From positions 2,294,001 to 2,358,000 of the forward strand of contig NZ_CP095397.1 in NCBI RefSeq assembly GCF_023008545.1: DNA of 64,000 bases, written 5' to 3'. The stretch is from Natribaculum luteum (GTDB lineage: Archaea > Halobacteriota > Halobacteria > Halobacteriales > Natrialbaceae). The notes beneath the pieces are model-generated. The model ran no database searches. It worked only from the letters and a program-made list of their open reading frames with translations, and had not been told where the DNA came from. The stretch's first letter is position 1; each line of letters begins with the position of its first letter. Below, in pieces: positions 42,041 to 42,626 of this stretch. The position numbers and the translations under genes are program-made.

Positions 42041-42250
42041 CGGTAGACTATCCATAGAACCTAAATATTATCAGCAATACTATGGACTGGGAATTCGATA
42101 AGATGACCCGTCTCTGCCGTGTCACTGGACAATCGTCGAGCGTTCCTGGTCGGTGACCTCCGTTACTCGAGCCTCGCCCGGACGTCGACCCGCAGCGAAC
42201 CCCCAGTCTCCGACGAACTGCAATCATCCGGAGCCAGTGCTCGCAAATTT

Positions 42251-42338
42251 GTTCGCGCCAAAAGTATCGTGGGAGGTAGATTTTAACCACGCCGAGACGT
42301 GCTCACTTCGTTGCGCGCGTCTCGTCTGGTTAAAATCT
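42251..42338. repeat. tRNA 3'-end echo, distal copy, with hairpin
   Basis: Contains GTTCGCGCCAAAAGTAT and a degenerate copy of the tRNA acceptor/T-arm complement. It forms a perfect 12-bp stem (42278-42289 with 42327-42338) and an inner 7-bp stem CGAGACG/CGTCTCG (42293-42299 with 42318-42324). It lies 118 bp from the next copy. Confidence 0.65.
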
Positions 42339-42368
42339 GCTCGTCGTATTTTCGACGCTCACGAGTTT

Positions 42369-42444
42369 GTTCGCGCCAAAAGTATTGTGGGAGGTAGATT
42401 TGAACCACGGTCGCAGCGAAGCTGCTCCCTGATTCAAATCTACT
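42369..42444. repeat. tRNA 3'-end echo, proximal copy, with hairpin
   Basis: Repeats the sequence flanking the tRNA 3' end (GTTCGCGCC, then GGGAGGTAGATTTGAACC). A 15-bp stem with two mismatches pairs 42393-42407 with 42430-42444. The inner stem is GCAGC-GAA-GCTGC (42413-42425). It lies 104 bp from the matching sequence next to the real tRNA. Confidence 0.65.
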
Positions 42445-42455
42445 CCGTGCTATGG

Positions 42456-42483
42456 TTGGCGCTCACGAGTTTGTTCGCGCCAA
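42456..42483 (-). terminator. Inverted repeat just downstream of the initiator tRNA
   Basis: TTGGCGC (42456-42462) and GCGCCAA (42477-42483) form a 7-bp stem with a 14-base loop. It lies 4 bases past the tRNA 3' end on the minus strand and includes a TTTT run at its tRNA-proximal edge. It plausibly terminates transcription or marks 3' processing. Confidence 0.4.
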
Positions 42484-42487
42484 AACA

Positions 42488-42562
42488 TAGCGGGAGGTAG
42501 ATTTGAACTACCGATCTGCGGGTTATGAGCCCGCCGGAATCTCCTGGCTATCCCATCCCGCT
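42488..42562 (-). tRNA. Initiator tRNA-Met (anticodon CAT)
   Basis: The minus strand folds as a tRNA. The acceptor stem is AGCGGGA/TCCCGCT with discriminator A. The anticodon arm is GCGGG-CTCATAA-CCCGC, and the T arm contains the GTTCAAAT loop. The A1:U72 end pair and the three G:C pairs at the base of the anticodon stem are the archaeal initiator features. No intron is seen and CCA is not encoded. Confidence 0.92.
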
Positions 42563-42626
42563 ACTTCTTCGTAACCCGGTGTCGTAGTTAAGGGTTGTGA
42601 TTCGGACGCCGTGTGCGGGTTTCTAC

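Follow-up and report, generated by a model that had tools for sequence, protein, structure and literature searches.

Hairpin arrays built from copied and inverted tRNA tails recur behind tRNA genes in haloarchaea

The rtT RNA of E. coli is freed on processing and has a role in the stringent response; the rtT repeats themselves have been, to our knowledge, a curiosity of one locus. In E. coli MG1655, the tail of tyrV recurs 159, 337 and 515 bases downstream of the gene, exactly 178 bases apart, with all three copies matching at 19/19 positions. In each repeat, an inverted arm, GGGGAAGGAT, pairs with the copy, and the two flank a hairpin core; the first such arm begins 59 nt past the tRNA. The annotated ncRNA RttR covers the first repeat. 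We met no mention of the inverted arm in search listings on rtT/rttR, which covered a small part of the tyrT papers. Likewise, no description of tRNA-tail arrays in haloarchaea was found in the open-licence PMC literature, and the annotation of haloarchaeal tRNA loci does not extend past the tRNA, judging by one annotated record. Besides PMC7237163, sections of PMC3119063, PMC7714728, PMC4983044 and PMC3432209 are cited.

The array behind the initiator tRNA

The window, i.e., the whole 64,000-nucleotide stretch of Natribaculum luteum DNA that was analysed, contains a tRNA-Met(CAT) gene, which we take to be the initiator by its A1-U72 pair and GGG/CCC anticodon stem. The original prediction had placed three repeats containing GTTCGCGCC beside this gene, and both the repeats (at about 42250, 42368 and 42472, with spacings of 118 and 104) and the gene (ARAGORN and Rfam) are indeed there. 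It had named GTTCGCGCC as the core of repeated acceptor/T-arm sequence and flank; this stretch is not tRNA sequence but part of a trailer hairpin (L) between the tail and the inverted arm, and the tRNA-derived part of the repeats runs from the T-loop to the discriminator base (Table 1). The complementary arms that it described do exist: AGATTTTAACCA and TGGTTAAAATCT pair at 12/12 positions, and the other hairpin is 17 nt long and 88% complementary. The 5′ arm is likewise derived from the tRNA, being its tail in imperfect reverse complement.

On the minus strand, the array occupies 42508-42239 and comprises two tandem units and the beginning of a third trailer, in the order tRNA-X-L-X′-C-X-L-X′-C-X along the tRNA strand. 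Here, X denotes the last ~21 bases of the tRNA, from the T-loop to the discriminator base (73), and its direct copies, L the small trailer hairpin, X′ an inverted copy of the T-loop and T-stem, and C a core hairpin. A T-loop change, C56 to A, in the second tail copy is mirrored in the second inverted arm. When the window was scanned with Rfam at the gathering score, the tRNA alone was matched and the array fell into no known family. Stepwise gain and loss of copies was observed: the locus has two units in the window, a single one in Natribaculum breve and up to three in other relatives.

Table 1. Features of the initiator tRNA-Met locus, in window coordinates
Feature	Position	Strand	Remark
Initiator tRNA-Met (CAT), parent gene	42487..42563	-	ARAGORN; Rfam tRNA 58.5 bits
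X, own tail of the tRNA, T-loop to discriminator base	42488..42508	-	
L1, trailer hairpin, TTTTGGCGC-GAACAAACTCGTGA-GCGCCAA	42456..42485	-	
X′1, tRNA tail inverted (CATAGCACGGAGTAGATTTGAA)	42433..42454	-	
C1, core hairpin, class A	42405..42432	-	class A behind 17 tRNA species
X1, tail copy, direct	42385..42405	-	19/21 matches
L2, region of second trailer hairpin	42340..42382	-	
X′2, second inverted arm (CGAGCAGATTTTAA)	42330..42343	-	
C2, core hairpin, class B	42287..42329	-	
X2, tail copy, direct	42267..42287	-	18/21 matches
L3, beginning of third trailer, end of array	42239..42264	-	

Distribution among tRNA genes and genomes

A DNA search of the same genome returned 34 matches, and most of the stronger loci have a tRNA directly upstream. 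We then took a census of three haloarchaeal genomes from three families, using fixed criteria of at least 15/21 matches for the tail copy and at least 8/12 for the inverted arm. Units were found behind 26/45 tRNA genes in the N. luteum genome (G000), and behind 23/42 and 20/42 in the two others (G057 and G060). Searching the 700 bases 5′ of the tRNA genes for their own tails gave 0, 0 and 0 in the three genomes. With the same unit present after roughly every second tRNA gene in three genomes and an upstream control of zero, the observation in the window is not a product of chance. Repeating the census with the tails of other tRNAs gave 7.5, 5.0 and 4.3 genes (N. luteum, G057 and G060), which we attribute to the resemblance of tRNA tails to one another. 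The alanine, tyrosine and isoleucine tRNAs carry no units in the three genomes. The set of unit-bearing tRNAs is partly conserved between families: presence per tRNA species was concordant in all three for 19/38 species, against an expected 9.6 (p = 0.0008).

Over a wider range, the pattern GATTYGAA-N25-55-TTCRAATC is present in 27/28 Halobacteriales genomes versus 12/118 other genomes of the phylum, the latter with one or two sites each, while a reversed control pattern is seen in 3/146 genomes. Units also follow tRNA-Gln in Halorubrum vacuolatum, tRNA-Asp in Natronobiforma, tRNA-Thr in Natronosalvus, and tRNA-Trp in Natrinema, Natronococcus and Halegenticoccus. Among initiator tRNA loci, 22/30 within the family have a unit by the strict criteria (24/30 with any copy), as do 13/23 in the wider order (21 parsed). 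The initiator tRNA on the Haloferax gibbonsii plasmid pHG2 also carries an array, and the match has no annotated feature in the one annotated record examined.

Three further observations concern particular loci. The array behind the tRNA-Leu of Halobacteriales archaeon YIM A00013 (L119:1622-2076) consists of three repeats of 146 bp that are nearly identical and all contain a class A core. On the second contig of N. luteum, five clustered tRNA genes recognised by Rfam (G000:C2:681274-683007; L056, L066, L082) are free of tail units; the ARAGORN calls there include Arg, Tyr, Glu, Gln and Asp. The cluster resembles a set of tRNAs carried by a virus or plasmid; it holds no accepted unit and is not among the 45 genes of the census. 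Finally, a coding-looking sequence, GTGGTCGGCGTGACGGTCTCGCCGTGGCCG..., is common to the regions downstream of tRNA-Arg(CCG) (L057), tRNA-Arg(TCT) (L040) and the elongator tRNA-Met (L006).

The N. luteum genome has 14 integrase matches, two of which follow a tRNA gene at a distance of no more than ~1.5 kb. The one at tRNA-Ala(GGC), a gene without a unit, lies ~0.4 kb downstream (G000:C1:2599293-2599673) and likely marks an integrated element; at tRNA-Glu(CTC), the unit is below the cut-off and the integrase is beyond it. At tRNA-Arg(TCT), an insertion of ~2.2 kb parts the tRNA from its unit (L083:1644-3800; G000:C1 ~1493942-1496110). It has a repeat of the tRNA end but no inverted arm, and contains two pilin-like ORFs and a further ORF whose end resembles a haloarchaeal integrase C-terminus. 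Comparison of integrase matches with tRNA positions, and inspection of the ORFs, revealed neither an integrase nor element remains between the tail copies of the arrays.

Match to the local tRNA and competing explanations

Both X and X′ fit the local tRNA. Across 120 non-redundant units (4/124 were dropped, two for lying on the second contig or for core length and two as duplicates), the pairing optimum of X′ is at tRNA positions 54-64. Within the T-stem, pairing between X′ and the copy of the same unit reaches 428/600, versus 290 ± 10 for permuted copies (maximum 328 in 2000), although the units are not independent as 50/120 are from tRNA-Met; in the N. luteum genome alone, it is 114/170 versus 77.8 ± 4.9. 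Where the T-stem of the initiator tRNA reads CCACC in place of CTACC, copy and arm have changed too, with some mispairs (L169, L170, L173, L176). Between genus mates, the tail copy is the best-kept part, with positions 53-65 identical at 180/183 (98%) against 1812/2055 (88%) in the flanks.

The core hairpins fall into rough sequence classes, A to E, behind 17, 12, 5, 5 and 1 tRNA species, respectively, with 24 units left unclassed. An alignment of class A (48 units) displays both-side changes within the arms and within the apical stem. In the units read, the orientation of the array is that of the tRNA. In a comparison of 101 units with distinct cores, C was predicted to be stabler on the sense than on the antisense strand in 82/101 (p = 6 × 10−11) and L in 72/98 (p = 2 × 10−6), p-values that are weakened by the shared ancestry of the cores; we think that the bias stems in part from paired GA mismatches on the sense strand. 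Tandem G.A pairs in L and C might suggest kink-turns, a reading that we do not claim. The pattern for L was too strict for counting this hairpin, yielding 7 sites.

The reading that we prefer, and to which we would give close to an even chance, is that the arrays are co-transcribed hairpin trailers, with X′ able to break up the T-arm of the tRNA and the copied tail serving to capture X′. The tRNA promoter would drive the array as a long trailer. Being antisense to the T-arm, an unpaired X′ would cause the tRNA to misfold, and the downstream tail copy would hold this arm within the C hairpin, so that each X′ needs a fitting X after it. Recombination between X copies could enlarge arrays by tandem duplication, and recombination in the nearly universal T-loop arms (GATTYGAA/TTCRAATC) could exchange cores between loci. 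The hairpins might serve the formation of the pre-tRNA 3′ end or its maturation, and are perhaps set free as small RNAs in the manner of the E. coli rtT RNA. Against this reading, about half of the tRNA genes do without units, so tRNA function in general does not depend on them.

Predicted folds are in part consistent with this trailer model. At thermodynamic equilibrium and standard salt, which folding during transcription in a haloarchaeon may not follow, the mean predicted probability of the T-stem over 68 first units is 0.74 for the tRNA, 0.25 with X′ exposed and 0.53 with core and copy; the corresponding values are 0.73, 0.26 and 0.67 in the N. luteum genome, and 0.97, 0.00 and 1.00 for the initiator tRNA. 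The copy is predicted to rescue the T-stem in 26/53 cases in which the probability had fallen below 0.5, and in 15/68 it is already below 0.5 for the tRNA alone. The predicted destruction of the T-stem by X′ alone and its restoration by core and copy are clear in the initiator tRNA and hold on average but not in every tRNA. In the E. coli array, the predicted switch is absent (probability 0.93 with X′ and 0.00 with the full unit), and the sense strand of its hairpin is no stabler than the antisense strand (-50.3 versus -50.8). We count the census, the T-stem pairing, the sense-strand stability, the both-side changes, the fold predictions, the concordance between families, the high identity of the tail copies between genus mates and the existence of the E. 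coli array with its annotated ncRNA in favour of the trailer model, and the partial rescue, the E. coli fold, the many tRNA genes without units and two features of the arms given below against it. A tRNA-specific fold switch acting in cis, with the inverted arm as anti-tRNA and the copied tail as antidote, in which read-through would decide pre-tRNA folding and excised units would form a new class of tRNA-matched small RNAs, strikes us as unlikely.

The main rival is that the arrays are DNA by-products of hairpin-templated copying, for which we see a lesser but substantial chance. L and C would act as two mirrors: at each, the nascent strand would fold back on itself and copy the tail, so that X and X′ come to alternate. 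Tandem units would arise by slippage, upkeep would be neutral, and quasi-palindrome correction would keep the arms matched. The two features of the arms make this a serious contender. First, the mismatches of the arms comprise 52 G.T versus 76 A.C, i.e., there is no excess of G.U and hence no wobble signature of RNA selection. Second, of the 42 sites where copy and tRNA differ, the arm still agrees with the tRNA in 25 but with the copy in just 15. Many trailer stems are, moreover, near-perfect palindromes, and the acceptor portion of X′, though mostly degenerate, has left a trace: the local score is 8.93 for the own acceptor versus 8.02 ± 0.12 for those of other tRNAs, above all 500 permutations (68 units), while in G057 alone it is 7.13, inside the permuted range (maximum 7.26) and not significant. 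Against a by-product stand the fixed orientation relative to the tRNA in the units read, the bias of stability to the sense strand, the lower conservation of the flanks than of the tail copies, the tendency of the same tRNA species to carry units in different families, and the occurrence of the pattern no more often than by chance in the phylum outside Halobacteriales. Origin and function of the arrays may be separate questions.

The finding of one core class behind many tRNA species, and of near identical cores in distant genera, could also point to a non-autonomous mobile family, whose core and T-loop arms would hop between tRNA genes, duplicating or copying the target tail on insertion. We regard this as quite improbable, since 14/14 exact class A sites, from 12 named loci, belong to arrays that follow tRNAs, and neither a blastn match to the array in phage records nor an exact core match in IMG/VR was found. 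On these same results, we rejected a MITE or mobile insertion away from tRNAs (0/14 sites tRNA-free) and a viral origin.

That the units are plain tandem transcription terminators appears very doubtful. A TTT does occur within 12 nt after 80/137 tRNAs, 21/33 internal copies and 42/87 last copies, and the part of PMC7237163 cited here gives two RNA 3′ ends for the tRNA-Pro of H. volcanii; yet terminators leave the match of the tail and its inverse to a particular tRNA unexplained. Nested attachment-site scars, one of two origins first proposed for this locus, are highly improbable despite the likeness of attR sites to tRNA 3′ end copies, as the units are of ~100-160 bp, without genes or an integrase inside, and occur behind most tRNA kinds across the order, while att sites lack the inverted arm and core and the genuine insertion at tRNA-Arg(TCT) differs in layout.

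Comparison with known systems

Integron attC sites have imperfect hairpin arms that contain a bulged base, and their apical part varies. The haloarchaeal units are like them in these three respects, by analogy, but their arms follow the tRNA and the units are without genes. REP and MITE palindromes are likewise short, non-coding, dispersed hairpins with conserved cores; in contrast to these, the exact class A cores keep to tRNAs and the arms are rewritten per tRNA. The attL/attR pairs of integrative elements resemble the arrays in that a tRNA gene is followed by direct copies of its 3′ end, whereas the haloarchaeal copies have no element between them, possess an inverted arm, and are found at about half of all tRNA genes.

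We found no closer relative than the repeats behind E. coli tyrV (rttR). Their layout is the same: in both, a copied tRNA 3′ end closes each tandem repeat, and every repeat has an inverted arm and a core. Accordingly, the other origin first proposed, a new class of tail-copying element, came close, but the layout has a precedent at this one locus. The two differ in that the E. coli repeats are confined to one operon, and in that the E. coli arm spans the T-stem and acceptor and not the T-loop, whereas the haloarchaeal X′ covers the T-loop and T-stem. If the arrays are transcribed, haloarchaeal tRNA genes have structured, tRNA-matched trailers through which tRNA folding, 3′ processing or yield might be controlled; as DNA by-products, the arrays would document how hairpins template copying at tRNA genes in nature. 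In both cases, the rtT repeats of E. coli would gain a counterpart that is spread genome-wide, and this in an order well suited to genetic work.
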